This document shows positions 9,675 through 27,265 of a DNA stretch of 27,265 nucleotides, piece by piece. Both the position numbers and the translations under genes were made by a program. The DNA is from a virus: the IMG/VR virus record IMGVR_UViG_3300030107_007911, positions 1 through 27,265 of that record; one strand, given 5' to 3'. The notes under the pieces were generated by a model. That model searched no databases. It was not told where the DNA came from and saw only the letters and a program-made list of their open reading frames with translations. Position 1 is the first letter of the stretch; every line of letters begins with the position of its first letter.

Positions 9675-12260
9675 ATGGGTGATCCTAAAGTAGTATTTAC
9701 AACTTACGGAAATTCTAGTTCGTTTGCTACTACAAATGTGTCTGGTCATGGTTCTGGAAACTCTACTCATGAACCATTTATTGAATTAAAAAGTGATTTA
9801 ATTCCACAATCTGCACAATTTTCTAATGGAGATTTTTCTGTAACAGATTTTGATACATTAAGAATTTTAACTACAGAGAATACTATAAATTCTGAAGGAG
9901 GAAGCACTGAAACTCATGAAAATACTTCTTATGTATCAAGGGGTGGGCCTCAGGGAACTTTCTCTTTAAGTGGTGGACAATTTGAGTTGTGTTCATTTGA
10001 TACTGGTGCGAAAGGTTCTTCAGTTGCAGACCACATAAGTAAATCTGGTGTAAGTCACAATTATGTAGCATTTGCAAATACAGGAGATGGTGATGGATTA
10101 ACTTTTAATCCCGATGGTACATTGGCTGTGGCTGCATCGACAGCAGTTGGCCCACCAACTGCTCATGCTTCAAGTACACCTTTTTCAAATATTGAATTTG
10201 ATGTTTCACATACGTCAACTCCATTACAAGCAATAGCTGGTGGAGGAACAAAGCCAGGTGAAAGTGCTGGAGTGGGGCTTCGTACAAATATGGAAGATGT
10301 ATTTATTGGTACAACTTCAACAGATACTTCTGTAGATCCTAATACACATCATTTTACTGTTACAAATTTTGGAGCTAGAACGGATTCTAGTCTTACAAGA
10401 AGATTTAGTGATCGTGTGCAAGTTACAGATGGCTCTGGAGCCACTTTTACACAAGAAGTTTTCTTTACTAATGTTTCTAACAAAATATTAGAAAATTGGT
10501 TTCCACAACAACCATTTAGAGAATCAACATCTAGTTCTACGGCACACGAAGGAACTATTAAGTTTAGAGTACATCCAGATTCAGAATATGAGTTGGATAA
10601 TCATATGACAACTACTAATGTAGCTGTTGATTCTGTAACAATTGCTCCTAGTAGTGATGTAGGCCCAATTGCTACACATTCTAAAGTAACAGTTACCACA
10701 GATGGTGCTCATGGATTGACAGATCAACAAAATCAAATAATAATGACTGGCTGTGATAATCCAACTCATATTAATGGAATTCATAATGTACACTCAGTAT
10801 CAAACACAACAGTTTTTACTTATGAAATTATAAAGAGTACTGTTGTTGGTGGACAAACTTGTGAAGGTTCTTTTAAATTACAAACTTATGATGGAATAGA
10901 CAAAACAGGAGCGGTAATAAAAGTTTCTGGAACAGGAAGTGGAGCTGGAATTGCAGAGATTGTACATGGAGGGTGTGGAGGAAATAATATTGTTCTTCTT
11001 AGAGGAGATACAAGTTCAAATATATCTTTAGGTACACAATATTATGTCTATGCGGATAACTCTGCAACTGCTTCAATTGCATCGGTTAAGTTTACCAGTG
11101 GCCCAACATACAAGTCTATGTTCAGAGATATGGGATTAAAGTTGAATGAGGATACTGGTCAAATTTCATCAAATGGAGCTTTTTCTGGTGGTTTGGCAAC
11201 AAGTAAAATTACTGCTGGTGGATTTATAAATCTTGAAGATGGATTGGCAAAATCTTTTGGAACAGAGTTTATTTTACAAGAAGGTGAATTTGGTGGAAAA
11301 ATAGAAACTGAAGATTTTAATCGTGTCGTTACTTTTCCCGATTCTGGATTAAATGAACTTGATTCTTATTTTCCAAAATTCAAACACGCAAGAGATTACG
11401 CATTGAACAGAGTAAAGACTGATGGAACAATTATTCAGTCTGGTGATGTGGTTACTATCCAAGGAGTTGATGCAGTCAGTAATATTATTTTACTTGAGGA
11501 TGAGTCAGGAGGTATACTTACAGAAGGTGGATTTTTTATATTTGGACTTGAAACTGGTTCACAGACTTTTCCAACTAAATTTGCTAATGCTTTACCATCA
11601 CCAGCAAGATTTAAAACTTTAACATATCAAAATGGATTTACTACCAATGTAAGTTATGCAACCTCAAATAGTGAATTTGTGGTACAATCTAATGCAGAGA
11701 TTACTTTGTCAAGTGATACAGGTGATGGAGAAACTTATGAACTTTCATATGCAGATACTTCTTGGCCAGTTACAAACTCTAGTTCTTATTGGTTTTTAGA
11801 TAATGTAGAAAATGCTCCTGTAGTAGATGACCAAAATAATATTTTACTTTTTAAAACAACTTCTGAAGGTACAAACTTTAAAGTTCACTTTACTATTAGA
11901 GCACAAAAAGTTCATAATCAAATGGGAGTATACACAGGAGGTCAAGGTACATCCACAGCCGCTTCGGTGTTAAATACTATAGATGGCTTTGGAGATGCAT
12001 TTGAAACTGGTACAGGAAATTATAAAGATGGTTTCTTTTTTGTTTCAGTTTACAATAATACAGATAGTGATAGAGATGATCAAGTAATAGTATTTTCAGA
12101 TCAAAATAATGCATCAAGTACTACATTAAATTTTAATGGAAATGCATTTAAACACAGAGATGATCCAGATGATTCAGATACAGAAGTTAGTATTCTTAAT
12201 GAAGAGTCACTAGCAAATTCATATTCAAATGGATTGTTCACAATTTTAGAGTCAGTATAA
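9675..12260 (+). CDS. Large virion structural protein of unknown role (861 aa)
   Basis: Not recognised as a named T4 protein. It is Ser/Thr/Gly/Asn-rich and looks all-beta, with no signal peptide or membrane segment. One module is visible at residues about 335-395 (TTDGAHGLTDQQNQIIMTG, then GIHNVHSVSNTTVFTYEI), a small beta-domain also found in the giant gp7-like protein of this window. The C-terminal third (SYADTSWPVTNSSSYWFLD, VHFTIRAQKVHNQMGVYTGG) looks like a compact folded domain. A good Shine-Dalgarno (AAGGAAGAG) precedes the ATG. Lying between the spike gene and the PAAR tip gene in a late operon, it is probably a virion component of the baseplate or an attached fibre or decoration. 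An adhesive role is possible but not shown. Confidence 0.5.
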   Translation: MGDPKVVFTTYGNSSSFATTNVSGHGSGNSTHEPFIELKSDLIPQSAQFSNGDFSVTDFDTLRILTTENTINSEGGSTETHENTSYVSRGGPQGTFSLSGGQFELCSFDTGAKGSSVADHISKSGVSHNYVAFANTGDGDGLTFNPDGTLAVAASTAVGPPTAHASSTPFSNIEFDVSHTSTPLQAIAGGGTKPGESAGVGLRTNMEDVFIGTTSTDTSVDPNTHHFTVTNFGARTDSSLTRRFSDRVQVTDGSGATFTQEVFFTNVSNKILENWFPQQPFRESTSSSTAHEGTIKFRVHPDSEYELDNHMTTTNVAVDSVTIAPSSDVGPIATHSKVTVTTDGAHGLTDQQNQIIMTGCDNPTHINGIHNVHSVSNTTVFTYEIIKSTVVGGQTCEGSFKLQTYDGIDKTGAVIKVSGTGSGAGIAEIVHGGCGGNNIVLLRGDTSSNISLGTQYYVYADNSATASIASVKFTSGPTYKSMFRDMGLKLNEDTGQISSNGAFSGGLATSKITAGGFINLEDGLAKSFGTEFILQEGEFGGKIETEDFNRVVTFPDSGLNELDSYFPKFKHARDYALNRVKTDGTIIQSGDVVTIQGVDAVSNIILLEDESGGILTEGGFFIFGLETGSQTFPTKFANALPSPARFKTLTYQNGFTTNVSYATSNSEFVVQSNAEITLSSDTGDGETYELSYADTSWPVTNSSSYWFLDNVENAPVVDDQNNILLFKTTSEGTNFKVHFTIRAQKVHNQMGVYTGGQGTSTAASVLNTIDGFGDAFETGTGNYKDGFFFVSVYNNTDSDRDDQVIVFSDQNNASSTTLNFNGNAFKHRDDPDDSDTEVSILNEESLANSYSNGLFTILESV

Positions 12261-12569: not shown

Positions 12570-12749
12570 ATGAGTAAAGAAGGTATTTGGCAAGATTCAA
12601 AAGCAATGAAAGATTCTGAAATGGTTAAAAAATGGACTGAAGTTTTACATACAGTAGAAAGTACAATAGAACAACTTAAATATCAAAAAACAGCTTTAAT
12701 AAAAAAGAAAGAAAATACTGTGAAGTCTGAGGAAAATAAAAATGGCTAA
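12570..12749 (+). CDS. Small charged helical protein, 59 aa, unknown
   Basis: An open frame from ATG at 12570 (1 nt after the PAAR stop) to TAA at 12747-12749, overlapping the next gene's start by 8 nt. The product MSKEGIWQDSKAMKDSEMVK continues with WTEVLHTVESTIEQLKYQKT and a Lys/Glu-rich tail; it is strongly helical and probably coiled-coil. Tight overlaps on both sides and ordinary codon use argue that it is real. Function unknown; it could be a small baseplate component or an assembly chaperone for one of the large neighbours. Confidence 0.65.
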   Translation: MSKEGIWQDSKAMKDSEMVKKWTEVLHTVESTIEQLKYQKTALIKKKENTVKSEENKNG

Positions 12750-15700
12750 CTGGAATAGTAAAGAATTACAAACGCCACCAGAAATTAAACAGATTGCTCA
12801 AAATGCCCAAAATGCAATAAACAATTTAGATATATTGTTAAAACTTGTTAAGCAGGGTGCAGATGTAGCTAAATTATTTGTGTTATTGATAAATCCAGCT
12901 GGAGCCATAATTAAAATAGCTGCCAATGAAATTATTAAGTTGTGTAATGATTTTAAAGAAATTGGAGTATTTTATTTGTTTATTAATCCAAATGATGAAA
13001 GTTATGGAAATCAAACTGATAGAGAATTTGGACTAGCCATACAACAAGATTCAAATGGTTTGTATCAATTTGAAATAGGTTCTTTTTCCTTACCACCTGT
13101 AAATAGGATTGTAAATACTGAGTATCGGAGAACTCTTGCGATTGCTGATCTTTCAACTGATTATCTAGATAGTGAGAAAAGAAATAAAAATGATCCAAAT
13201 TTTGATCCACCAATTCCAATATTAGCTAGTCCGGCTCAATGGGAGCTGGGTGGATATAACCCCGAAACTTGGACAGGTGACGCACCAGTTTATGCTAATA
13301 TTCCAATAGTTAATGATTTTGGAGAAACATTTGGAATAAACCCACCACAAATGAAACCTTCTAAAGTACTTAGAATTATGTCTGAGGCTTTTGATGATCC
13401 AGGCGATGTTTCAACATTTAGAGTTCTTCCTCAATGGAAAGATATTGTTCGGCCAAATACTAAATTTGCAGAAATATACACTGCCTCTGGTGAGTTAGTT
13501 GATAAAGGTACTTTTAATCCCGATAGGTTACAATCCGAGTCACTTTATTTTTTCCCCGATCAATACATCCATCATTCAGATGGCCCAAGGTATCGTACAC
13601 TTGAAGAGCGTCAACCAATTACTGAAAGAGTACAATCTGGAAAACCTAATTTTTCGGGAAGTGCTAATATTCAAGGAATTGAAGTTCTTGCTGTTGTTGC
13701 AATAGTTGGTGTAGATAATACAAGCTATAAAAGGTTTGTAGAAGCTTTTGAGGCTCTCAAAAATTTGTTTGGTAATTTACCTTCTATCTCTGAATTTACT
13801 GATGATATCTCTGCAATTTTTCAAAGAGCTACTGCTCCACCAGATACACCGATGACTGTTACCAATGACAGTAAATGGGGGAATTTTAGAGTAAGCACTG
13901 ATCAAAGTCCATATTACATAATAGGACAAAACAGTAACGCAAAAGCTAAAATAACAAAGATAGTAAAAAAAGAAGATTATGAATTAAAAAAAGTAAAAGA
14001 AACTGTTCTCACATTAGCCAGTGGAAAAACCACAATATTTAAAAGCACAGTAGATGATAATGAGGATGGAAGAATACAAAAATTAGAATTACTTGTTAAA
14101 ATGATTGGTGAGGAAACTTTTTTTCCAGATGAACAAATTTTTGAGGGAATAACAACGCCTGATATTATAGTCGAGGCTGGTGCCTCTGGTGAAACTAAAG
14201 TGCCGGGCAGTATAATAGTCAAACCAGCTAAAGGTTCAGCTCTTGATCGTACTGTACCATATGATCAAGTTAATCCAGATGATGTGGCTTCTTATGGAAA
14301 AGTATTGGGAGTTAATACTGCAGCTCCAGACTCTATTCATCCAGATTTTGAATCAATCAAACTAAAAGATGTAATCCCCGGCTATTCAGATTTCTTTGAT
14401 GAAATCATACAATTTGCGGAGGGATTAAAAGGATTCGCTGCAACTTCTGATGAATTTATTGCAAGAATAATAAAACTTATTGATGAAACAGTTGAACAAT
14501 TTGAAGAAATAGCAAGTAAAATTAAAGCTTTCCTTAAAATATTTGCGGATGGACTTCCTGCTGCAGGAGTTTATTGGTTGACAATTAAAACCTTTGGAGG
14601 AAATCAAGCAATTCAAGAAGCTTTAACTAGTTCAGAAAATCCACCACCAGATACTTTAACTTACTCTGCTGGTTTTATAATGGTATCCGTTAGTGGAATG
14701 GGAGGATTAAGTGCAACAAAAGGTTTTGAAAAATTTTTTAAAGGATTAGGATTAGAGTTTCAAGAAGTTGCTTCTATTCCAGATGTATCTGAATTGGATG
14801 CTGCAGTACAAAAATTAAGTGATGATTATGGTAAAGCCACTGCTGCTCAAGCTGAATTAGCAACAGATGTTTTTGATGCTGCTGGTCTTAATCCACCAGT
14901 TACCTTTAGAGATGCAACAACAATACAATTTACAGAATGGAATAACGTAAAACCTAATGTTGGTGATTATGTTCTTGGAATGAAGTCTGGATGTTTTGGT
15001 CAAATTCTTAGGTTTGATGATCTTGGTAGTTTAGTAGTAGACCATATCAAACTTGGGCCTACAATAACTGGAACTACAGTTGATGAAGAAAGAATAGTTA
15101 GACAGTATGATAACAGTAGTGGGCAATTTATAGAGTTTCCTTATGATGGAAGTGCACCATTAGAACCAGATAGAGAAACTTCAACTGGCCAAGATCCAGA
15201 ATTGGCAATTGATTTTACTAAAGGAAATACAACAACACTTGTTGGAGAGGGAAGATTTACAAAAGAAGTATTGACAAATAGATCATCTCATAAACCAAAT
15301 GGTAAAGGTACTACAGTTTATGAAGTGTTTCAAGGAAATGAAAATACTTTTGCAGCAGTAGAAGATTCAATAGAACAAATAGAGGGTGATAATTTCGATT
15401 GGACAATGACTGCTGATGCACCATTTAATACTTTTCCAAGTGAAAGATCAATGCAACAACAAATATTTAAAGTTATTGATGGTGCTGTAAAAGATCCAGA
15501 ATTAAATGCTGGATTTAATGGTAGATTTGGTTTCTTTACAGGTGATGATACCATTATTTCATTTACTGAAACTACATCAAGATCAAGTGAGGAACTTGCT
15601 CAAATTTTTATTGCAGATGTTGAGGGAAGAAATACTGAAGAAGATGGTGTTACTCGTTTGCAAATTCCACCCACAGATGATGATACTGAATATAAGAAAA

Positions 15701-15840
15701 TGGTAATTACAGTTAAAGGTGATGATGCAATAACTGAAACTGGCCAGGGAGGAATAGTTGAATCTTATGCTAAAGCTTTAGATAATGTACCAAACCCCGA
15801 AAATTTACCAGCAGATAGAAATTTGTTGGAAGATAACTAA
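12742..15840 (+). CDS. Large virion structural protein of unknown role (1032 aa)
   Basis: Not recognised. Residues about 10-75 form helices with a hydrophobic run (ADVAKLFVLLINPAGAIIKI). The centre contains a region rich in Tyr/Pro/Asp (residues about 140-290), a helix-rich segment (about 540-600, FDEIIQFAEGLKGFAATSDE and onward) and a Gly-rich hydrophobic stretch (about 640-660, GFIMVSVSGMGGLSATKGFE). The C-terminal part is acidic and ends shortly after NVPNPENLPADRNLLEDN. It lies between the PAAR/small-protein genes and gp25 in the late baseplate operon, where marine T4-like phages commonly carry a very large structural gene. Role in the baseplate periphery is likely but inferred only from location and size. 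Confidence 0.5.
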   Translation: MANWNSKELQTPPEIKQIAQNAQNAINNLDILLKLVKQGADVAKLFVLLINPAGAIIKIAANEIIKLCNDFKEIGVFYLFINPNDESYGNQTDREFGLAIQQDSNGLYQFEIGSFSLPPVNRIVNTEYRRTLAIADLSTDYLDSEKRNKNDPNFDPPIPILASPAQWELGGYNPETWTGDAPVYANIPIVNDFGETFGINPPQMKPSKVLRIMSEAFDDPGDVSTFRVLPQWKDIVRPNTKFAEIYTASGELVDKGTFNPDRLQSESLYFFPDQYIHHSDGPRYRTLEERQPITERVQSGKPNFSGSANIQGIEVLAVVAIVGVDNTSYKRFVEAFEALKNLFGNLPSISEFTDDISAIFQRATAPPDTPMTVTNDSKWGNFRVSTDQSPYYIIGQNSNAKAKITKIVKKEDYELKKVKETVLTLASGKTTIFKSTVDDNEDGRIQKLELLVKMIGEETFFPDEQIFEGITTPDIIVEAGASGETKVPGSIIVKPAKGSALDRTVPYDQVNPDDVASYGKVLGVNTAAPDSIHPDFESIKLKDVIPGYSDFFDEIIQFAEGLKGFAATSDEFIARIIKLIDETVEQFEEIASKIKAFLKIFADGLPAAGVYWLTIKTFGGNQAIQEALTSSENPPPDTLTYSAGFIMVSVSGMGGLSATKGFEKFFKGLGLEFQEVASIPDVSELDAAVQKLSDDYGKATAAQAELATDVFDAAGLNPPVTFRDATTIQFTEWNNVKPNVGDYVLGMKSGCFGQILRFDDLGSLVVDHIKLGPTITGTTVDEERIVRQYDNSSGQFIEFPYDGSAPLEPDRETSTGQDPELAIDFTKGNTTTLVGEGRFTKEVLTNRSSHKPNGKGTTVYEVFQGNENTFAAVEDSIEQIEGDNFDWTMTADAPFNTFPSERSMQQQIFKVIDGAVKDPELNAGFNGRFGFFTGDDTIISFTETTSRSSEELAQIFIADVEGRNTEEDGVTRLQIPPTDDDTEYKKMVITVKGDDAITETGQGGIVESYAKALDNVPNPENLPADRNLLEDN

Positions 15841-15883: not shown

Positions 15884-16276
15884 ATGGCAACATACAAAAA
15901 ATCTTATGCAGATTTGAGTTTTGATTTTACGGCAAATCCACAGACAGGAGATGTTGCAACAGTAAAGGATGCAGTTTCTGTAAAAAGAGGAATTAAAAAT
16001 ATATTATTGACAGCAGAGTTTGAAAGATTATTTCAACCACAGATTGGTTCTGGAATTAAGAATATACTATTTGAACCAATGACACCTCTTACTGAACAAA
16101 GGCTGACAGATGCATGTGTATCTGCAATAGAGGCATGGGAAACTAGAGCTTCTTTAGTAGATATAACAGTCACTTCAGACGAAGAATATAATCGTTATAG
16201 AGTTGCTATAAAATTTAATATCAATAATTCTTTAGAAACAGAACAAGTAGATGTATTCTTAAATAGAGAGAGATAA
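15884..16276 (+). CDS. gp25: Baseplate wedge protein gp25
   Basis: 130 residues, nearly the same as T4 gp25 (132). It shows the GPW/gp25 family pattern: YADLSFDFTANPQTGDVATV, then VKRGIKNILLTAEFERLFQP with QIGSGIKNILFEP, and the closing strands VDITVTSDEEYNRYRVAIKF. gp25 forms the core bundle with gp6 in each wedge, joins it to the sheath and belongs to the conserved lysozyme-like EPR-containing proteins of contractile machines; no catalytic role is expected. A Shine-Dalgarno (AGAGGA) precedes the ATG, and gp6 follows 5 nt later. Confidence 0.93.
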   Translation: MATYKKSYADLSFDFTANPQTGDVATVKDAVSVKRGIKNILLTAEFERLFQPQIGSGIKNILFEPMTPLTEQRLTDACVSAIEAWETRASLVDITVTSDEEYNRYRVAIKFNINNSLETEQVDVFLNRER

Positions 16277-16281
16277 AAAAA

Positions 16282-18177
16282 ATGAGCGATGTATCTTCTA
16301 AACTTAAAGTATCTGAATTAGATTTCGATAATATTAAATCAAATCTTAAAAATTTTTTAGGTGATCAAAATGAATTAGCTGATTATAATTTTGATGGTTC
16401 AGCAATGTCTGTTCTCATGGATCTTTTGGCCTACAACACTCATTACAATGCATTCTATTTGAACATGATTGTAAATGAGATGTTCCTTGACACAGCATCT
16501 CTCCGAAACTCTGTAGTGTCTAGGGCCAAGCATTTAGGTTATACTCCTACTTCTGTTAGGGGTGCAAAAGCTTATGTTGATTTAACCATTACTCCTGCAA
16601 ATACTCCTGCTACTATTGTAATTGCAAAAGACACACAATTTAATGCTGTAGTAAATGGTATCTCTTATGTATTTTCTACATCCAATTCCACTACTTTGAA
16701 TGTTAATTCAAATGGTGTATATACAACAGCTAATGTAGAGTTACAACAAGGTATACTTTTAACACATAGATATACTGCGAATGTCTCAGATCCAGATCAA
16801 AGATTTACTTTACCTAATGCAAATACAGATACAAGTTCACTTGTGGTACAAGTACAAACTTCTGCAACTAGTTCAAATTTACACACCTATTCAGTAGCAA
16901 ATGATACAACTACAATAAACTCTACAGCCAACGTATACTTTTTAGAAGAAGATACAGACAATAAATACAGAGTTTATTTTGGTGATGGAACTATTGGAAG
17001 AGCATTAACAAGTGGTAATATTATACTTTTAAAATCTTTAATAGCTGATGCGGGTGCTACAAATGGTGCAAGGACATTTACTCCTGTTAGTACAGTTGGC
17101 GGTTATTCAAATGTTACAGTAACAACATTATCAGCTGCTTCTGGTGGTGCAGACAGAGATTCAATTAGTGATATAAAATTTAATGCACCAAGAAATTACC
17201 AAGCTCAAAATCGTGCAGTAACACTTAATGACTATATTAGACTAGTTCAAAGAGATTATGCAGATGCAGAGTCAGTTATTGCTTGGGGAGGTGAAGATAA
17301 TGATCCACCAGTTTATGGTAAAGTGTATCTAGCAATAAGGCCAGAGTCTGGACTTAATCTTTCGGTCACTGCTAAAAATTCAATTAAAAATGATATTTTA
17401 GCAAAAAGAAATGTGGTATCTATTTCAACTGAAATAGTAGATCCAGATTATTTGTATTTAACTTTTGATAGTACTGTTAAGTATGACTCCTCTAAGACTT
17501 CAAATACTGCATCCACCATAGCAGATTTAGTTTCTAATACTGTTTACAATTTTGGTGTAGACAATCTTAAAGGTTTTGCAAATGAGTTTAGATACTCACC
17601 TCTGATTAAAAAAATTGATGAGTCTGAAACTTCAATCGAAAGTAGTCTCTCTACAGTTAAATTAAAAAAAATATTTGTTCCTTCTCTTAATGTATCTAGT
17701 TCTTATACTTTAAATTACAATAATGAAATTTTTCACCCTTATACTGATTATGTAGATTCTGTTACCAGTACAGAATTTGCTCATTTTGATGCTGACGACA
17801 CTTTAAGAACAGGGTGTAATCTACAAGATGCAAATGGAGTAATGCAAGTTTATCGTACAACAGGAGATACTAGAATTATTGTTGCAAACAATGTTGGAAC
17901 TGTTACTTATGGTTCGGGTGTAGTTGCTCTTGCTGGATTTAAACCAGTTTCAATTGGAGATGGTACTGCAAATTTATCGGTAACTGTTGCGTTAGCGTCA
18001 AGTGATGTTACACCAGTTAGAGAACAAGTTTTACTTATTACCAATAATGATATTTCTGTTGCAATGGTGGATACCTTTGGAACAGGAACAAGTACTACTG
18101 GTACTACTTCTTCCGCTGTTAGTGGTTCAACTTCTGGTGGATCAAGTGGTAGTGGTGGCTCGGGAAGTAGCTACTGA
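16282..18177 (+). CDS. gp6: Baseplate wedge protein gp6 (baseplate J-like)
   Basis: 631 residues; T4 gp6 has 660. N-terminal wedge-core segment: LKNFLGDQNELADYNFDGSA, then LLAYNTHYNAFYLNMIVNEM and RAKHLGYTPTSVRGAKAY, the hallmark of gp6/gpJ proteins. A second conserved block is at residues about 310-365 (LNDYIRLVQRDYADAESVIA, WGGEDNDPP, GKVYLAIRPESG). gp6 dimers form the iris-like ring that joins the wedges and holds the hub. The last 30 or so residues (from about nt 18079) are an unusual Ser/Gly/Thr-rich low-complexity tail that does not look like part of the fold. The stop overlaps the next start (TGATG), so gp7-like synthesis is probably coupled to gp6. Confidence 0.92.
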   Translation: MSDVSSKLKVSELDFDNIKSNLKNFLGDQNELADYNFDGSAMSVLMDLLAYNTHYNAFYLNMIVNEMFLDTASLRNSVVSRAKHLGYTPTSVRGAKAYVDLTITPANTPATIVIAKDTQFNAVVNGISYVFSTSNSTTLNVNSNGVYTTANVELQQGILLTHRYTANVSDPDQRFTLPNANTDTSSLVVQVQTSATSSNLHTYSVANDTTTINSTANVYFLEEDTDNKYRVYFGDGTIGRALTSGNIILLKSLIADAGATNGARTFTPVSTVGGYSNVTVTTLSAASGGADRDSISDIKFNAPRNYQAQNRAVTLNDYIRLVQRDYADAESVIAWGGEDNDPPVYGKVYLAIRPESGLNLSVTAKNSIKNDILAKRNVVSISTEIVDPDYLYLTFDSTVKYDSSKTSNTASTIADLVSNTVYNFGVDNLKGFANEFRYSPLIKKIDESETSIESSLSTVKLKKIFVPSLNVSSSYTLNYNNEIFHPYTDYVDSVTSTEFAHFDADDTLRTGCNLQDANGVMQVYRTTGDTRIIVANNVGTVTYGSGVVALAGFKPVSIGDGTANLSVTVALASSDVTPVREQVLLITNNDISVAMVDTFGTGTSTTGTTSSAVSGSTSGGSSGSGGSGSSY

Positions 18178-21100
18178 TGATAACAGATGGTGGAATTCTT
18201 TATAGTCAAATAGATTCACAACTTCCTAGTTTTGTTCAAACTGACCACGCAAAATTTTCTAAGTTCATAGAAAAATACTATGAGTTTCTTGAACTGAATC
18301 TTATTACCTTCACAGATTTAGACCTCAATGAAGATGCCATTTTACAAGAAAAGGCAAATACCACATACACCATAACTGTTGCTACTGGTAATAACTCATA
18401 CAGTAATTCTGCAAATAAATTTTATGTTGATGGTGCAGTTTCTCCAACCATAACACTTACCACAGGTGCTCATGCCATCTTTGATCAAGGTGATGAAACT
18501 AACGCCACACACTACTTCCACATATCGAAAACACCAAATGGTATTCACACAGCTGGTGGTGAACAATTTATTACTGATGACAGAGGGGATATACTTTTTA
18601 CCTATGATGGTGAGCCTGGAGATCTTGACAATATTACACTTCAAGATAATTCTGGAATTTTGCTCTATGAGGATATGACATTTGCGATTGGTGATACTAA
18701 TATAGTTTTTGATAATATTACACTTGAAGATGATTCTGGAATTTTAATTTACAATGAAATTATTACGGCCGGTGGTTACCTTTCATTTGAAGCTGGTCAC
18801 CAAATATTGTTGGAAGAATTTACAGGTTTATCTGAAAATAAATTTATACAATCTGAAGACTTTACTATAGATGGAACTGGAACAGTCGAAGTTGCTTATG
18901 AAAAAACTACTGGAATAGAAGTTGGACTTGAATCATCCTCTACTGCAGCATTTTATGTTTCACCAGATCTTGCTGGGGAAACTCTCTACTACTATTGTAA
19001 TAATCACTCTGGAATGGGTGGAAGTATTACAGTATCTAATGTTACATCTTATATTTCTCAAGAAAATGGAAATACTGAGTCCTCAAATACTTCTACAGAT
19101 TATATCACTATTGAAAATGATAAAAGACAGGGTGATCAATTTTTAAGTGGTGAAATAATTCTTGGAGCAAATTCTGGTGCCACTGGTATTGTTAAGGGAA
19201 AATACTCAAATACTCAAGTTTATATTGAAGAAACAAATAATGGTGCTTTTGAAGTAGGTGAAAGTATTAGTGGTAAATCCTCAAGAGCCACTGCTAATAT
19301 AAGTTCATATTCTAGACAACCAATCAATGCATCTAGAAATGTAAAAGCTTTTCAAGATATTGATAAAGCTCCAGCAGGTTTTGTTGAACTATTCAGAAAA
19401 GAATTTTTAAGTGGGTTTAATAAAAATGAAGATATAAACACAGCTAATTTACTCAAAAATATAAAAGATTATTATCGTGCAAAAGGTAATGAAAATTCTT
19501 TTAGATTTATTTTCAGTTTACTTTTTGGTATAGATGATGTAACTTTTTATTATCCTAGTAATGATATGTTGAGACTTTCTGATGGAAGATGGACTCTTGA
19601 CAAATCAATTAAAATTCTTACAGACTCAGCAAGTTTTCCAGATTCTTTTTTAGGTAAAAGAATTGTAGGACAAACATCTAATGTTTCTGCAGTTGTAGAA
19701 AGGGTTGAAAGATACGCAGTTGGTTCACTTGATGTTACAGAATTTTTCTTATCTGGATTTGATGCTAATAACGCTAATTATCAAGCAACTGAGAATGCTG
19801 ACTATACCACATTTTTCTTGGGTGAAGCAATAAAAACTCAGACTGCAGATGATGATGGAAATTTCGCAACAGCAACCACAAGTGGAGTTTTACAAAGTGT
19901 CGATATAGTATTTGGAGGCTCTGGTTATACAAAGGGTGATGAACTACTAGTTACTGGTGGAGGTGGTACAGGAGCTAAAGCTAAAATTGGTTCGATAGCT
20001 GCAGCCTCTCTTACTGGAATTACTGTAGTAGATTCGGGCGATGGTTATACAGTAGGTGATGTAGTTACATTTGTTAATGATGGAACTGGTGGTACTGGTG
20101 GTACTGCTAGAGTTGATAGTATCGTTAAGACAGTAAATGTATTTACACAAACTGAAGTTATTAGTACATTTAAAACTGATACATTGGATGCTTCTGCATT
20201 TTCTTCACCTTGGTCATCATTTACAGTAAACACTCACTTATCATCAAATTCTACTACCACCTTTACTGTACCATTTGATGGTCTTTCTGGTACTACTCCA
20301 AAACAAGGAGATTTTATTGCCAAGTTTGGAAGTGGTGAAAGTATTACTTTATACACTCCAGGCACCTCAAAATTTGGTACAGTAGTTAGTACAAACTCTA
20401 CCTCAATTACTTATGCGTTAGGTTCAATAGACTATCAAACAACTCATAATGTAGATCCAACTTTAAATAATTTTGTAAACAATGATGAAGTAACTATTTT
20501 TGATCTTTCTAAAGATGGTGATGGAAGTGCAATAACATCTAATGGATACAATGCCACATTTCGTGCAACTGGTGCAACTTTTGATATCAATGGAACTCCC
20601 GCTGCAAATACAGATTCCACTTATCATGGTTCATTTACAATGCAGGAATCTTCAATCGGTGGTGTTCGTTCAGTTCAAATATTATCTTCTGGTCAAGGAT
20701 ATGAAACAGTCCCGCCTGTTTCTGTAGCAAATACTGAGATAGCTTCTTATCGTAATGCACCAGAAAAAGTTGGTGCAAATTCTATATTTGTTAATCTTGC
20801 AAATACTATTGCGAATACATTTACAGCAAATACTTTAGTCAAGAATGCTTCAAATAATGCTTTTGGTATTGTTCTTGATTTTCTTGACCTTGCTTCAACA
20901 ACTTTAGCTGACACAGGGAATACTACTTTAAGAATTCAAATGACAAGTGCTAACACGTTTAGCTCAAATGATATTCTTACTGCTTATAGTAGAGCTGATA
21001 GTAGTCCAATCGGAATTGGTGATTTTGGAACTGCAAATGTTTCTACATCTGGCACTACTGCTACATTTACCCAAACGAATCATGGATTTGGTGCGGGAGA

Positions 21101-24100
21101 TAGAATTGTAATTACTGGTTCTGAATCTGCAACAGATAATACAGTATACAATAATAATCATACAATCTCAGGAATTACAAATTCTTCTACTTATACTGTA
21201 ACTCTCGCGAGTGATCCTACTGATGATAGTGAGACTTCATTAACTGTTAGAAAAATTGTTACAGCAAATGTATTGGCAGATTTATTACTTACTGAAGATT
21301 CTACAACCACACAAATATCTTTTGAAAATGGAATAGGAACTGCAAATGATGATTACAGTAATTCTGCAAGTAATGGATCTATTATAGTTGAGAGTGGAAT
21401 AGATGAAGCGAATAGTACATTTGCAAATACTGGAATACCTGGCAACAACGCAATTATTGAAGTTGCACAACTTGCAGTTGGTGCAATTGAAACTGTTTTA
21501 GTTTACGATTTTGGTGCTGGATACGCTTCGGCTCCAACGATTAATGCTTCAGCTGTTGGTGATGGTACTGCAACATTGACAGGAAATGTTGGTGTTTATG
21601 CAGAATATACTGGATACTTTAATGGTAACTATGGATTATTGAGTGGTACAAATAAAATGCAAGACAATTTGTATTATCAAGATTTTTCATATGTTGTTAA
21701 AACAAATAAAGACGTTGCCACTTATAGAGATAAGATATTAGAACTAGTACACCCAGCTGGAATGGCTTTGTTTGGTGAAATTTCAATGACAGATCAACTG
21801 TCTGTTAAACTATTCAATGATGCTACAAATAATATAAACTCAACTCAAGCAAATACTGCACAAGTAGCAAATACAGAAAATGCTTCACTTTATAACTTTC
21901 ATGAAATTGAGTTCTATACTTCAAATACAGCTTCAACCAACAATCAAATTGAGGTTGAATCTAGTTTTGAATTCAAATCATTTTCTTCTGGAATTTTTGC
22001 TGGCCCAGAAAATGATGCAAGACTTGACACAACTGGATCTAGCACTGATTTTGATTTACAGTTAGAACATGGAAGTGATGTAATTTCTTTAGAAGAATTT
22101 GATTTTTTCCTCGCATTTGAAAATACTGGTGAAATTCTTCTTGAACAAGATTTAGGTGGAGAAGTTGGAGATAGACTAATAGAAGAAACAGCTGACTTCT
22201 TACTTACTGAAGATATGTTGTCTCGTACAAGGTTAGAAGATGCTACAAATGACAATGGAGATGTACTTCTTTTAGAAGATGGTGAAACAAGTAATGATAA
22301 TTTTTCTCATGAAGGTGTTTTATTAAATGAAGAAAATGATGGTTCTTCACCAATAATATTTGAATTTTTTGAACCAGAACTTGGAAGAGTTACTACTGAA
22401 GATGGCGATAATATATTGGTTGATGTTCTAAGTTCATTTACTTTACAAATAGATGAATTTTTTGGTAATTATATTATTATGGAAGATGGCACTTTTTTTG
22501 TTCAAGAAGATGAGGCTGGTAAATTTTCACAGGGATTTAAAATACAACAAGAAGGTGTTTTTACATTTACTGAAAAAGAAGGAAATCTTATACAAGAAGA
22601 TGGTGCTTTTGTATTACTTGAAAGACAACTAATTGATGAATCAGACCGCCCAATAGGATTAGAAATTCCATTAGGTGGTACTTTTGAAACTGTGTACATG
22701 GAATTGGAACAAGCTGAAGGGGGTGATTCTCAAGTTAGAGAAGATAGTGTCTCATATTTTGCTCTTGAAGAGGATGTAGATTTAGTACAAACTTTAAGAT
22801 TAGAAGCTGAAGATGGTGATCTTTTATATGAGGATGGACTTTCTATTCTTCTTCAATCACAAGGAGTAGAAAGAACAATTAGAATTCGTAATGAAGAAGA
22901 AGCTTCACATTTTCAAATGGAAAATTTTGATAGTGATCTAGTACAAGAAGAACAATATCAACTTCAACTAGAATCTTATACTCTCCCCTCTCTCACAGAT
23001 GTAGGATTTATTATACAAGAAAATAATGATGCCCTTCATCTTGAAGAACCTAGTGCATACGATACTGATAATGACGAGTTCCGTACTGCAATTTACGCGG
23101 AATACGGCCTCTTTACATTTGTCCAAAACTCATCTAATTTAAGGGCTCAAGATGGTGATGTGAGAGATGTGAAGTTTAATAATGATGGAACTAAAATGTT
23201 TGTGTTAGGTAGGGGTAATGATGGAGTTTATGAATATTCATTATCAAAAGCATTTGATGTTTCAATATTAACTTTTGTTCATAAGTTAGATATTAGTGAT
23301 GAAGAGACAGCGGCAAATAGTATAGAATTCAATCTAGACGGAACTAAATTGTTTGTGTTAGGTCAATCTGGTGATAATGTTGATGAATATGCATTAAGTA
23401 CAGGTTTTGATCTCTCAACAGCCTCCCCAAATGGTACTATTTTTGATGTTAGTGGCCAAGAAGGTCAGCCTTATGGTTTGGCATTTAATAATGATGGAAC
23501 TAAAATGTATGTTAGTGGTTGGCAGGGTGACGATATTAATGAATATGCATTAACAACTGCATTTGATGTTTCGACAGCATCATTTACTCAAAATTTTTCA
23601 ATAGAAGGAACAGGACGCAGTAATCCATCAGCAGTACAATTCAATGCAGATGGAACTTTCATGTATGTTTTACAGGGTAATACCAATGCTCGCATTCATG
23701 AATACTCATTAACAACTGCATTTGATATTTCAACAGCATCTTTTACAAATAGAGTTTTTGATGTAACAAATGAAGAAAACAGAGCAAGAGGCTTCTGTTT
23801 TAGTAATAATCATTCTCAACTGTTTGTTACTGGTTGGCGTGGAGATGATATTAATGAATATACTGTAAATTATTCTCTTCCAGATACATCACACTCAGAT
23901 GAGCCGGTAGATAGAAGTCCTTCATATTTTCTTTTTGAAAATGATGATGCAGATGCTAGAGCATATCTGTTAGAAGAACCAACAACAATTTATCAAAATA
24001 TTCAAAGTGAAGATCCAAATGATCAATTTGTTATTATTACAGATGATACTGCAGATACCATTATACTTGAGATAGAAGAATTTATTACTGATACAAATTT

Positions 24101-26240
24101 TAAAGGTGAGTCTTATGATTCTGGAACTGGTTTCTTGTTACCAATGCTTCTTTTTCCAACAGCTGAATCAGGCTCTGCAACACTAGACCTTAGTTTCACT
24201 AGTCGAATAGTGATGGAAATTGATGATATACAAAATGTAAGATTAGAAAATGATGGTGGTGATCTGCATTATGAGGATGATGGTAAAATTTTATATGAAC
24301 AGCAAGAAACAACATCCGTAGGTTATCAGTATGACTTCATATTATTAGAAGAATCTGATGGTACAAATCCAGTATATATTGCCACAGAATCTTCTATGAC
24401 AGAAGAAGTAGATGGTATAGGAGAAATTGAAATAGTCTCTGATGGAGAAATGTTTCTACAACTTGAAAATGTACATGGAAAACATGATAATGGATTTCTT
24501 ATAAATGAAGAGGGTTCTGGTATTGAATTAGAAGTTGGCACAAGTGGTGGTGGAGGTGAAATTATTTTTGAAGATGGAGAAAAACTCCTTCTAGAAGTTG
24601 ATGAAGAAAATAAATTTAAAGTAGAATTTCCTAGTGTTGCTGCATCAGTTAGACCTACAGTTTCAGCTTTAAATACTGGTGACACTCTTAATGAAGGTAG
24701 TTTCTTAACTAGAGGTTTTGGAAATAGAACATACGGATCAGTTGCTCTTTCAGAATTATCGGGTGAAGTAGTAACTGCAACTGGAACTGTCACTCAATTT
24801 GAATTTGACTTTAATAATCTTATAGTTCTTGAAGCTGAAAAAGGAGTTATAGTATTAGAACAAGATACACCAGAAGAAAATTCAATTATTTTAGAAAATA
24901 ATAATCCAGATATTTTTGGTCTTCTCCAACAAGAAGATGGAAGTAAAATTTTTACAGAAGAAGATATACACACACTAATTCCAGCTCCAGAAAGACTTTG
25001 CCATGTTGGATTACACGATTTAATTTTAGAAGAGGAAGGTATTCTTCAAGAAGCAGTTGATCAAATTAAATTAGAAGATTTTACATTAGATAATGTAGTT
25101 CAAGAAGATTTTATTATAGGGGAATTCGTTCCATTTCTTGGATTTGGAGATGAGGCTGATGAATCAATAACTATTGATGACAATATATTATTAGAAGCTG
25201 CAACACATAAATCAGAAAATGTAGTTATTGAAGCTGAAAATGGAGATTTAATTGCGGATGAGTCTGATGGCTCAAGTCATTTTGTTTTGGAGAATTTTTT
25301 CTTTAAATATTATAATGTAGGAACTGTTACTCAAACTGGAACAACTATAACTGTATCTGGTGGTCAATTTCCTTCTGCTGTAGTAGAAAATGGAAGATTT
25401 TATTATCAAAATGGACAAGATTCAACAGTTATTACAGCAGTATCTGACAATCTTAATGAAATAACAGTTGAAGAATCTAGAACAATAAGTTCACCAGAAA
25501 ACTATAAAGTTGAATACGCACTTGATGATACTCCAGCAGATTCTACCTCAGTTATAATAATGGAAGCTTTCAGTCTTGATCCAACAACTGAGCGTGTTAG
25601 AATTGATTTAATTTTTAATGGAGAGGGTGATGTCAATCATGGATTTACTAGAGGTGAAGACTCAGATGGTCTTGGAACATTTACATTATCTATTGCGGCA
25701 TTTACTGATATCGTTGGAAATGATATTATATATGAAGATGGAGAAAGAATTTTAGCTGAAGATTCAATTGGTGGATATATTGCTTTTCAAGATTCACCAC
25801 AAAATGTTTCTTTAGGTATTGCTCATAGTAAAGTTTTAAATGAAGATGATTCTGGTGGTTTTATATCAACTGAAGATCATGAAGGTAATGAAACAACTCA
25901 AGATGATAATGTTCTCTTAAAGGAATTGAGTGACGCACTTCTACTAGAAGACAGCGAAACTGAAACTTTAAATTATGTACTAAGTGAAGAAGGAGGACAA
26001 ATGATGCTTGAAGATGTCTTTCAAGTTTCAGAACATAAAATAGTTTTTGATAGTAATGATTCCATATTAATAGAAGATCAACCCGCTGGTAATGATTATA
26101 GATTATTGAATCTAGATATGGGGAAATTTGATATTGAAACAATAGCTAACAACACATCAATGACAATTAATGCATCAACAGATTTTTTCAAAAGATCTGA
26201 TTCTGCTATATTAGTTTCAAGAACAGAACAGATTGTTTGA
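18177..26240 (+). CDS. gp7: Giant gp7-like baseplate wedge protein with cupredoxin-like, propeller-like and acidic repeat regions (2687 aa)
   Basis: T4 gp7 has 1032 residues; this is over twice that. Layout: 1-60 N-terminal helix (LPSFVQTDHAKFSKFIEKYY, typical of marine T4-like wedge proteins); 91-287 cupredoxin-like domain split by an insertion (H112, C274, H277, M280); 385-480 core block NLLKNIKDYYRAKGNENSFR then YYPSNDMLRLSDGRW; 570-650 Gly-rich 'TGITVVDSGDGYTVGD' modules; about 955-1022 a 'NHGFGAGDRIVITG' beta-module; about 1170-1210 return of core-like sequence (YQDFSYVVKTNKDVATYRDK, LELVHPAGMALFGE); 1257-1650 acidic LLED repeats; 1651-1901 five propeller-type repeats; 1918-2640 more acidic repeats with a beta-module at 2382-2445. 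The gp7 role is supported by position between gp6 and gp8. The large C-terminal half is probably surface-exposed, perhaps host contact. No frameshift is seen across the 8 kb. Confidence 0.68.
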   Translation: MITDGGILYSQIDSQLPSFVQTDHAKFSKFIEKYYEFLELNLITFTDLDLNEDAILQEKANTTYTITVATGNNSYSNSANKFYVDGAVSPTITLTTGAHAIFDQGDETNATHYFHISKTPNGIHTAGGEQFITDDRGDILFTYDGEPGDLDNITLQDNSGILLYEDMTFAIGDTNIVFDNITLEDDSGILIYNEIITAGGYLSFEAGHQILLEEFTGLSENKFIQSEDFTIDGTGTVEVAYEKTTGIEVGLESSSTAAFYVSPDLAGETLYYYCNNHSGMGGSITVSNVTSYISQENGNTESSNTSTDYITIENDKRQGDQFLSGEIILGANSGATGIVKGKYSNTQVYIEETNNGAFEVGESISGKSSRATANISSYSRQPINASRNVKAFQDIDKAPAGFVELFRKEFLSGFNKNEDINTANLLKNIKDYYRAKGNENSFRFIFSLLFGIDDVTFYYPSNDMLRLSDGRWTLDKSIKILTDSASFPDSFLGKRIVGQTSNVSAVVERVERYAVGSLDVTEFFLSGFDANNANYQATENADYTTFFLGEAIKTQTADDDGNFATATTSGVLQSVDIVFGGSGYTKGDELLVTGGGGTGAKAKIGSIAAASLTGITVVDSGDGYTVGDVVTFVNDGTGGTGGTARVDSIVKTVNVFTQTEVISTFKTDTLDASAFSSPWSSFTVNTHLSSNSTTTFTVPFDGLSGTTPKQGDFIAKFGSGESITLYTPGTSKFGTVVSTNSTSITYALGSIDYQTTHNVDPTLNNFVNNDEVTIFDLSKDGDGSAITSNGYNATFRATGATFDINGTPAANTDSTYHGSFTMQESSIGGVRSVQILSSGQGYETVPPVSVANTEIASYRNAPEKVGANSIFVNLANTIANTFTANTLVKNASNNAFGIVLDFLDLASTTLADTGNTTLRIQMTSANTFSSNDILTAYSRADSSPIGIGDFGTANVSTSGTTATFTQTNHGFGAGDRIVITGSESATDNTVYNNNHTISGITNSSTYTVTLASDPTDDSETSLTVRKIVTANVLADLLLTEDSTTTQISFENGIGTANDDYSNSASNGSIIVESGIDEANSTFANTGIPGNNAIIEVAQLAVGAIETVLVYDFGAGYASAPTINASAVGDGTATLTGNVGVYAEYTGYFNGNYGLLSGTNKMQDNLYYQDFSYVVKTNKDVATYRDKILELVHPAGMALFGEISMTDQLSVKLFNDATNNINSTQANTAQVANTENASLYNFHEIEFYTSNTASTNNQIEVESSFEFKSFSSGIFAGPENDARLDTTGSSTDFDLQLEHGSDVISLEEFDFFLAFENTGEILLEQDLGGEVGDRLIEETADFLLTEDMLSRTRLEDATNDNGDVLLLEDGETSNDNFSHEGVLLNEENDGSSPIIFEFFEPELGRVTTEDGDNILVDVLSSFTLQIDEFFGNYIIMEDGTFFVQEDEAGKFSQGFKIQQEGVFTFTEKEGNLIQEDGAFVLLERQLIDESDRPIGLEIPLGGTFETVYMELEQAEGGDSQVREDSVSYFALEEDVDLVQTLRLEAEDGDLLYEDGLSILLQSQGVERTIRIRNEEEASHFQMENFDSDLVQEEQYQLQLESYTLPSLTDVGFIIQENNDALHLEEPSAYDTDNDEFRTAIYAEYGLFTFVQNSSNLRAQDGDVRDVKFNNDGTKMFVLGRGNDGVYEYSLSKAFDVSILTFVHKLDISDEETAANSIEFNLDGTKLFVLGQSGDNVDEYALSTGFDLSTASPNGTIFDVSGQEGQPYGLAFNNDGTKMYVSGWQGDDINEYALTTAFDVSTASFTQNFSIEGTGRSNPSAVQFNADGTFMYVLQGNTNARIHEYSLTTAFDISTASFTNRVFDVTNEENRARGFCFSNNHSQLFVTGWRGDDINEYTVNYSLPDTSHSDEPVDRSPSYFLFENDDADARAYLLEEPTTIYQNIQSEDPNDQFVIITDDTADTIILEIEEFITDTNFKGESYDSGTGFLLPMLLFPTAESGSATLDLSFTSRIVMEIDDIQNVRLENDGGDLHYEDDGKILYEQQETTSVGYQYDFILLEESDGTNPVYIATESSMTEEVDGIGEIEIVSDGEMFLQLENVHGKHDNGFLINEEGSGIELEVGTSGGGGEIIFEDGEKLLLEVDEENKFKVEFPSVAASVRPTVSALNTGDTLNEGSFLTRGFGNRTYGSVALSELSGEVVTATGTVTQFEFDFNNLIVLEAEKGVIVLEQDTPEENSIILENNNPDIFGLLQQEDGSKIFTEEDIHTLIPAPERLCHVGLHDLILEEEGILQEAVDQIKLEDFTLDNVVQEDFIIGEFVPFLGFGDEADESITIDDNILLEAATHKSENVVIEAENGDLIADESDGSSHFVLENFFFKYYNVGTVTQTGTTITVSGGQFPSAVVENGRFYYQNGQDSTVITAVSDNLNEITVEESRTISSPENYKVEYALDDTPADSTSVIIMEAFSLDPTTERVRIDLIFNGEGDVNHGFTRGEDSDGLGTFTLSIAAFTDIVGNDIIYEDGERILAEDSIGGYIAFQDSPQNVSLGIAHSKVLNEDDSGGFISTEDHEGNETTQDDNVLLKELSDALLLEDSETETLNYVLSEEGGQMMLEDVFQVSEHKIVFDSNDSILIEDQPAGNDYRLLNLDMGKFDIETIANNTSMTINASTDFFKRSDSAILVSRTEQIV
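18447..19037 (+). other. Split cupredoxin-like domain inside the gp7-like protein
   Basis: First half (residues 91-130): TITLTTGAHAIFDQGDETNA then THYFHISKTPNGIHTAGGEQ. Second half (233-287): GTGTVEVAYEK, then AAFYVSPDLAGETLYYYCNN and HSGMGGSITV. The C-x2-H-x2-M loop (C274, H277, M280) with an upstream His (H112) has type-1 copper ligand order, with the loop spacing of amicyanin. Residues 131-232 interrupt it with acidic repeats. Copper binding is inferred, not shown. Confidence 0.6.
18627..18770 (+). repeat. 84-nt spaced direct repeat within the cupredoxin insertion
   Basis: The segments beginning at 18627 (DNITLQDNSGILLYED) and 18711 (DNITLEDDSGILIYNE) are nearly identical at DNA level and 84 nt apart, in frame. 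They are the first members of the acidic LLED-type repeat family that expands later in the gene. Confidence 0.75.
21945..23130 (+). repeat. Acidic 'LLEDG' repeat tract 1 in the gp7-like protein
   Basis: Many irregular copies of a short motif, roughly hydrophobic-hydrophobic-x-E-D-G-x-hydrophobic-hydrophobic-x-E (for example GEILLEQD, DVLLLEDGE, NYIIMEDGTFFVQEDE, GDLLYEDGLSILLQ), spaced about 12-25 residues. The region is extremely rich in Glu/Asp/Leu/Ile and encoded by recurrent GAAGAT codon pairs. A beta-solenoid-like or extended beta structure is possible. Confidence 0.7.
23150..23880 (+). repeat. Five ~48-residue beta-propeller-type repeats in the gp7-like protein
   Basis: Each repeat follows the pattern V-x-F-N-x-D-G-T-K-M-F-V-x-G-x(4)-D-x-[VI]-x-E-Y-x-L-[ST]-T-A-F-D-[VI]-S-T-A-S. 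Repeats start near 23157, 23300, 23460, 23615 and 23770. DNA identity is high between repeats 1 and 3 (FNNDGTKM) and 3 and 4 (LTTAFDVSTAS), implying recent duplication. The pattern resembles YVTN/SMP-30-like propeller blades. Confidence 0.75.
23930..26100 (+). repeat. Acidic 'LLEDG' repeat tract 2 in the gp7-like protein
   Basis: Same motif family as tract 1, for example DLHYEDDGKILYEQ, EIIFEDGEKLLLEVDE, DLILEEEGILQEA, DIIYEDGERILAED, NVLLKELSDALLLED. It is interrupted near 25321-25510 by a beta-module of the 'GTVTQTGTTITVSGGQFPSA' kind often seen in marine phage structural proteins. Confidence 0.7.
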
Positions 26241-26291: not shown

Positions 26292-26312
26292 AAAAAGGTT
26301 TTGGAGGAAACA

Positions 26313-27265
26313 ATGGCCGCTTTAGTAACTAACAAATTTCGCATTCATAACGCTAAACAATTTTTAGAAGCGTTTGATGAGGTGTCATTTTCATCTGGGG
26401 CAGCTGTCACAGACTCTAGTGGACTCCTCAATAGTAATATGTACCTTTTTATCGGAAAGGTAACTGGATGGAGTGATGATGCAAATCCACCTAGTCCAAC
26501 TGATTCTGTAGCAAACACTCACTATGAAAATTGGCGTGACATGATTGCTGCAAAAAAAGTTACATCTTCAGATGTATCACACGCTATTCCAAGAAAAAAC
26601 TGGACTAACAATACTAATTATTTTGCTTTTACTGATAACACTAGTACACTTTTTAGTCAAGATTTTTATGTGATGACAGATGACTTTAATGTATATAAGT
26701 GTTTATCAAATAGTGAAACAAACTCATCTGGATCTGTCGCAACAACTTCTACTGTTAAACCAACTGGAACTGGAACAAGTATTATTTCAACAGCAGATGG
26801 TCATAAGTGGAAATTTATGTATCAAATTTCTGCTTCAGATGCATTAAAATTTGTAACACCAAATTTTATTCCAGTAGACACAGTAAGACGTGCAAATGGA
26901 ACACTTGCCAACACATTTGATAATTCTCCAGCTCAGGTTCAGTTTGATGTTGAAACTGCAGCTGCAGCATCTGGTGGTGGTAATGGTGCGATTGAAGTTA
27001 TTCATCTGACCACTAGAGGATCACAGTACTTAGGTGAAGTAGGAAACCTTTCTAGTGTTACAAATACAACCACAGTTACAATTACTGGTTCTAGTCTTGG
27101 TGCTGATGATTCTATCGTAAATAGTGACATATATTTTACAAGTGGAGATGCCTCTGGAACTGGCGGAACTATTACAGACTACAATGGTACAAGTAAAGTT
27201 GTAACATTTTCTCCTGCTGTCGGTACTGCACCATCTTCTACTGATGGTTATGCCATTGGGCCTAA
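26313..27265 (+). CDS. gp8: Baseplate wedge protein gp8, C-terminus beyond window
   Basis: 317 complete codons from ATG at 26313, open to the right edge; T4 gp8 has 334 residues, and this version may be longer. The N-terminus is diagnostic: MAALVTNKFRIHNAKQFLEA, then MYLFIGKVTGWSDDANPPSP with TDSVANTHYENWRDMIAAKK and SHAIPRKNW, parallel to T4's 'FGRSEPWSS...PPYPTDSV...AVIPRRDW'. A further family-like block is HKWKFMYQISASDALKFVTP. gp8 dimers attach to gp10/gp7 at the wedge periphery. A Gly/Ser/Thr-rich stretch begins around residue 215 and may be an insertion. A strong GGAGG Shine-Dalgarno (26303-26307) precedes the start. Confidence 0.88.
   Translation, partial: MAALVTNKFRIHNAKQFLEAFDEVSFSSGAAVTDSSGLLNSNMYLFIGKVTGWSDDANPPSPTDSVANTHYENWRDMIAAKKVTSSDVSHAIPRKNWTNNTNYFAFTDNTSTLFSQDFYVMTDDFNVYKCLSNSETNSSGSVATTSTVKPTGTGTSIISTADGHKWKFMYQISASDALKFVTPNFIPVDTVRRANGTLANTFDNSPAQVQFDVETAAAASGGGNGAIEVIHLTTRGSQYLGEVGNLSSVTNTTTVTITGSSLGADDSIVNSDIYFTSGDASGTGGTITDYNGTSKVVTFSPAVGTAPSSTDGYAIGP

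Follow-up and report, generated by a model that had tools for sequence, protein, structure and literature searches.

Some cyanophages have plastocyanin (petE) among their auxiliary metabolic genes. Tail fibres of the T4 gp37 type contain HxH iron sites, and iron in tail fibres is the subject of the Ferrojan (Trojan Horse) idea (PMC11705849). The YHYH domain (PF14240), a predicted metal-dependent hydrolase (PMC7824862), occurs in phage tail and baseplate proteins (PMC7824862, PMC7029224). The analysis of an IMG/VR virus fragment of 27,265 bases from a marine bacteriophage (the window, meaning the whole stretch of DNA analysed) points to a cupredoxin-like domain with a putative type-1 copper site inside a baseplate protein.

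The right part of the window is a T4-type baseplate operon encoding a tail tube cap, gp53, a gp5-like hub, a PAAR protein, gp25, gp6, a 2687-aa protein and a wedge protein at the gp8 position. The closest relatives of gp6 are those of Methylophilales phage Melnitz and Pelagibacter phage HTVC008M, with about 40% identity. Two ORFs inside the operon, 9675-12260 (861 aa) and 12742-15840 (1032 aa), gave no Pfam or PHROG match. The genes and gene parts surrounding the domain are as follows.

15884..16276, plus strand: gp25-like baseplate wedge protein (PF04965, 48.2 bits)
16282..18177, plus strand: gp6-like baseplate wedge protein (PF21379, 76.2 bits)
18177..26240, plus strand: ORF of the 2687-aa gp7-position baseplate protein, between the gp6-like and gp8-like genes
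18177..18353, plus strand: N-terminal wedge segment, residues 1-59, common to phages without the cupredoxin (tblastn; Melnitz, S-PM2 and others)
22077..26240, plus strand: C-terminal extension, residues ~1301-2687, with more LLED-type repeats (PSSM scan, repeat search)
26301..27263, plus strand: baseplate wedge protein at the gp8 position, truncated at the window end (phrog_438, E 4e-57)

The preliminary description had taken the 2687-aa protein for a baseplate wedge protein, and this was borne out by matches to Pfam Baseplate_wedge PF23786 (39.1 bits against a cut-off of 27) and to the PHROG baseplate wedge subunit phrog_17744 (E 6e-35). The name "gp7-position" refers to the place between gp6 and gp8 and is used instead of gp7, because T4 gp7 is reported to be absent from pelagimyophages and cyanomyophages (PMC7029224). 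Residues 11-46 of the N-terminal segment align with residues 15-50 of the Melnitz protein (blastp). The C-terminal part also contains 4-5 beta-propeller-like repeats of ~52 residues with a weak Kelch match (23175-23870).

The presence of a cupredoxin-like domain with the four residues of a putative copper site was confirmed. The 2687-aa protein has one such domain, composed of residues ~62-148 and ~254-290.

18360..18620, plus strand: first half of the cupredoxin, residues 62-148, containing H112 (alignment with uninterrupted orthologues; masked HMM)
18510..18512, plus strand: H112, first ligand (aligned with amicyanin H53 by hhalign)
18936..19046, plus strand: second half of the cupredoxin, residues 254-290 (orthologue alignment, masked HMM)
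18996..19016, plus strand: C274-x2-H277-x2-M280 ligand loop (letters identical in 9/9 orthologues)

As was found by direct reading of the residues and by the hhalign register, H112, C274, H277 and M280 occupy the positions previously assigned to them, in type-1 order and with the loop of amicyanin. The motif C-x2-H-x2-M occurs only once in the protein, which contains three cysteines in total, and its spacing equals that of amicyanin (PDB sequence search and alignment). The order His ... Cys-x(n)-His-x(n)-Met is in register with known cupredoxins. A family HMM with masked ligand columns recovers both halves in the window protein (residues 62-136, E 2e-17; residues 234-288, E 2e-4) and all four residues are retained in nine of nine orthologues, so the ligand pattern is more than a product of chance. 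In classical type-1 sites, the residue following the first His is commonly, though not universally, Asn or Ser, which makes a hydrogen bond to the Cys sulfur; Pro stands there in 87% of the family and Tyr in the window. A second His is located three residues past the first ligand in the insert-bearing clade (HYFH, residues 112-115, 18510-18521), where relatives have HPLR or similar. H124 was considered as a fifth invariant residue and rejected, since Trp and other residues stand there in relatives.

The profile comparisons argue for homology to known cupredoxins. The profile of 79 family sequences aligned with amicyanin/plastocyanin over 81 columns with H/C/H/M in register (hhalign E 6.8e-7, score 40.9). 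Of 300 column-shuffled controls, 298 scored 19.8 or lower; the two exceptions, scoring 131 on only 7-8 columns at the profile end, were dismissed as a program artefact. The hhalign probability of a match to cupredoxins was 16% for a narrow profile of 32 sequences and 92% for a broader one. With the ligands masked in both profiles, Cys and His remained in register and the first His was off by two. A bridging protein from a marine Bacteroidetes cell scores above the Pfam Copper-bind cut-off and matches a phage member by BLASTP (2e-6), its ligands in register. Neither the window record nor the family members reached the cut-offs of Pfam Copper-bind PF00127 or Cupredoxin_1 PF13473, and the Pfam and NCBIfam scans of the domain gave no match to any cupredoxin model; the best stray Pfam match, CBM_4_9 (6e-4, four of 32 members), was rejected. 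The profile search against cupredoxin families proposed earlier succeeded with amicyanin/plastocyanin and failed with the Pfam and NCBIfam models.

AlphaFold models of the window domain and of an uninterrupted orthologue were each compared with the PDB. The mean pLDDT was 58 for the window domain, the low-confidence insert included, and 71 for the orthologue. In blocks of 10 residues, the window model has values of 60-90 over most of both halves, namely 69-90 over the first 60 residues of the domain and 60-85 over the second half. The matches of the window model include the cupredoxin domain of Hyphomicrobium denitrificans nitrite reductase (Z 8.8), rusticyanin (8.4) and AcoP (8.1), each spanning both halves (model residues 1-234), and Z values of 8-8.8 are at the edge of what the structure-comparison tool calls meaningful; the case for the fold was therefore not rested on Z values alone. 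The uninterrupted orthologue gave the same list of matches, with Foldseek E values of 3e-4 to 8e-4 for rusticyanin and nitrite reductase. In the lists of both models, 50 of the 50 top aligned PDB entries are cupredoxins or have the cupredoxin fold, laccases, ceruloplasmin and factor VIII among them. The matches suggest a Greek-key beta-sandwich across the whole domain, and the cupredoxin-superfamily fold, put forward in the preliminary description, can be predicted with moderate confidence. The domain might instead be a generic Ig-like or other beta-sandwich, in which C-x2-H-x2-M arose by chance or binds zinc, as the middling Z values and the weak antibody matches in PDB sequence searches would allow. 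It seems very improbable, given that both aligned structure lists hold cupredoxin-fold entries only and that the profile homology keeps the ligands in register; the antibody matches were put down to chance in view of the fold and profile results.

The two halves of the domain are separated by an insert.

18621..18935, plus strand: insert, residues 149-253 (105 aa), LLED-type acidic repeats (orthologue alignment)
18620..18676, plus strand: insert repeat unit 1, DNITLQDNSGILLYED (repeat search)
18704..18760, plus strand: insert repeat unit 2, DNITLEDDSGILIYNE, 79% identical to unit 1 (repeat search)

At the corresponding site, five of the close relatives (L002-L006) have an insert and four (L007-L010) do not, and the lengths form a graded series: 2 residues in L007-L010, 60-62 in L004-L006 and 104-109 in L002/L003. 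Since four orthologues are uninterrupted and three have a shorter insert, the segment is an insertion. Its limits follow from the junctions, which read GTPG-EA-GAQTSIYITPDLAGNTLYYYC in an uninterrupted orthologue and GEPG, 105 residues and SSTAAFYVSPDLAGETLYYYC in the window. The preliminary boundaries (91-130, 131-232 and 233-287) were accordingly corrected with the insertion-free orthologues to 62-148, 149-253 and 254-290, and the insert length was changed from 102 to 105 aa. The view that both halves belong to one domain held, as the masked HMM finds both of them, the structure matches span them and the orthologues have them joined.

The two 57-nt copies of the insert repeat are 79% identical and lie 84 nt apart. 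In the PSSM scan, the insert unit matched "DIQNVRLENDGGDLHYEDD" at residue 2017, the one such place, with a score above that of any of 1000 shuffled versions of the C-terminal part. Together with the uninterrupted orthologues, this similarity supports the earlier proposal that a repeat of the LLED type entered the domain, the insert and the C-terminal LLED repeats being one family. A search with the insert among phage records returned no match. The insert is modelled mostly with a confidence below 50. The insertion loop is bordered by strands 76-81 and 90-95 in the uninterrupted-domain model, where the Cys strand is 103-108; traced back from the Cys strand, this strand order suggests that the loop is at the ligand end of the sandwich, in which case the repeat would be displayed beside the predicted metal site.

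The gp7-position proteins of cyanophages contain several copies of the domain, some with the ligands and some without them. The search of 2507 ORFs from the collected loci used an HMM in which the four ligand columns were masked, and yielded 351 family domains; the counts are those of round 1, chosen because the third round dropped ligand-less copies. Among the 61 clusters formed at 60% identity, 37 have four ligands, one has three, one has two, five have one and 17 have none. Loss of the first His goes with loss of the Cys, some 50 positions away (Fisher 1e-11, clusters); this value overstates independence because most rows represent one clade of second copies. None of the 61 clusters has Cys-His-Met without the first His. 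In the tree built with the ligand columns removed, the first His changes six times and Cys/His six times, which gives about six concerted losses, a number with which a sign test cannot reach significance. Some loci were gathered by ligand-containing motifs, so that masking cures the bias of the HMM and not that of sampling; the ligand-less copies came mainly from other locus sets and from flanks. Copies without the site retain the core (F41, N48, S56, P95, L97, Y98, G108) but have drifted at the ligand positions and at the residue next to the first His. As either all four or nearly none of the ligands are present, the four residues behave as one site, and such a pattern is what a metal site predicts. 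In gp080 of cyanophage PSS2 (L168:1492-1830), annotated as a baseplate wedge subunit, the domain stands alone and lacks three of the four copper ligands.

Since some copies have no site, the metal is not needed for the role of every copy. The module could be metal-free in the virion, the four residues being a relic or making packing or hydrogen-bond contacts at one end of the sandwich. Several family copies do well without the ligands and Asn/Ser is missing after the first His, which is consistent with that explanation. It is nevertheless considered unlikely, because side chains used only for packing are not expected to vanish together, and these four are invariant over long divergence in the intact copies and drift in the lost ones with the core kept.

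At least 101 phage records out of 50,697 contain the domain, from phages of Synechococcus, Prochlorococcus, Pelagibacter and Methylophilales. It also occurs in more than 570 stretches of viral contigs among the matches listed, and genomes of marine Flavobacteria and of Prochlorococcus encode it within large proteins. The large flavobacterial proteins (L103, L107 and similar loci) carry it with intact ligands. Annotations of the phage proteins that carry it read wedge, tail fibre, connector or hypothetical protein, and intact copies are present in the cultured phages S-TIM5, Melnitz and P-SSM2. None of the open-licence papers searched names the domain, and it may have been described earlier elsewhere. 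The family thus has no name in Pfam, NCBIfam or the searched papers and is common in virion proteins of marine phages. Of the initial impression that such a domain is unusual, the part concerning its lack of a name in Pfam and NCBIfam stood; its rarity did not, as it is widespread in phage records and marine bacterial proteins. The YHYH domain is combined with the cupredoxin family in cyanophage gp7-position proteins (L355:14097-19259, L167:385-3255, L356:6319-19680).

In the wedge orthologues of Melnitz and HTVC008M and the more distant one of S-PM2 (L359, L360, L361), the wedge body follows the N-terminal segment with no domain between them, at the place corresponding to 18360-19046 of the window. 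Because of these orthologues, the domain is regarded as an accessory module outside the wedge machinery. We estimate at roughly two in three the probability that residues 62-148 and 254-290 form one cupredoxin beta-sandwich with a type-1-copper-like site, belong to a family of surface modules in virion proteins of marine phages and serve as a metal-locked, displayed structural or host-contact module. With the fold as predicted, we infer the identity of the metal (copper), where it originates and what the domain does, as follows. In this lineage, a cupredoxin would have joined a T4-type baseplate wedge protein at the boundary of its N-terminal segment and wedge body, and one of the domain's loops would later have grown by expansion of acidic LLED repeats. 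The domain would most likely take up a copper ion supplied by the lysing host or by seawater. With the metal bound, the sandwich would be locked at its ligand end, and the baseplate would then display the domain for a structural purpose or for contact with the host. As ligand-less copies exist, the fold must be useful in itself, the simplest possibility being a displayed module for structure or contact, and as ligand-bearing copies have stayed intact over long divergence, the metal probably contributes something. The proposal that asks the least is that it stabilises the exposed end, host contact or copper carriage being more demanding. Of the roles suggested in the preliminary description, the structural or host-contact one is plausible, and redox sensing found no support.

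Copper might also be used actively, the virion delivering it to the host surface in a manner like that of the Ferrojan (Trojan Horse) or employing it in redox chemistry during adsorption or injection. The location of the domain in baseplate and tail-fibre proteins, its intact type-1 ligand set and the iron of the T4 tail fibre, also proposed for marine phages (PMC11705849), would fit such a use; the ligand-less copies adjoining intact ones and the stand-alone ligand-less form of PSS2 make it distinctly improbable. The broader idea that the baseplates and tail fibres of ocean phages commonly bear genuine type-1 copper proteins, so that virions form a pool of copper ligands and copper takes part in host recognition or entry, is quite doubtful. 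A family with intact copper ligands that is common in marine phage virions raises a plain testable question, namely whether ocean phages carry copper, and the natural ligand-less copies in the same proteins are ready controls. The window can be viewed as a three-layer mosaic of wedge protein, cupredoxin and repeat, the intermediate steps of which persist in relatives.

Among the known systems, the YHYH domain is likewise a predicted metal domain of baseplate proteins and occurs in the same cyanophage proteins as the cupredoxin family, but it is an unrelated domain, absent from the window protein (Pfam scan). The HxH sites of T4 gp37-type fibres are also metal sites in a phage adhesion structure, but differ from the window domain in fold, metal and ligands. 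Rusticyanin, AcoP and the N-terminal cupredoxin domain of the H. denitrificans nitrite reductase, the best structural matches, have the same type-1 fold and the order H, C, H, M; they are periplasmic electron-transfer or enzyme domains, whereas the window domain would be a structural module of the virion, contains the repeat insert and has no match in the sequence libraries. Amicyanin and plastocyanin (PF00127) have the ligand order in common with the phage domain, which has the C-x2-H-x2-M loop of amicyanin and profile homology with E 7e-7; the phage domain stays below the Pfam model, has Pro or Tyr for Asn after the first His and is not a soluble electron carrier. The likeness to petE is that of a blue-copper-type protein encoded by a phage, but petE is a stand-alone carrier derived from the host, whereas the domain of the window is built into a baseplate protein.
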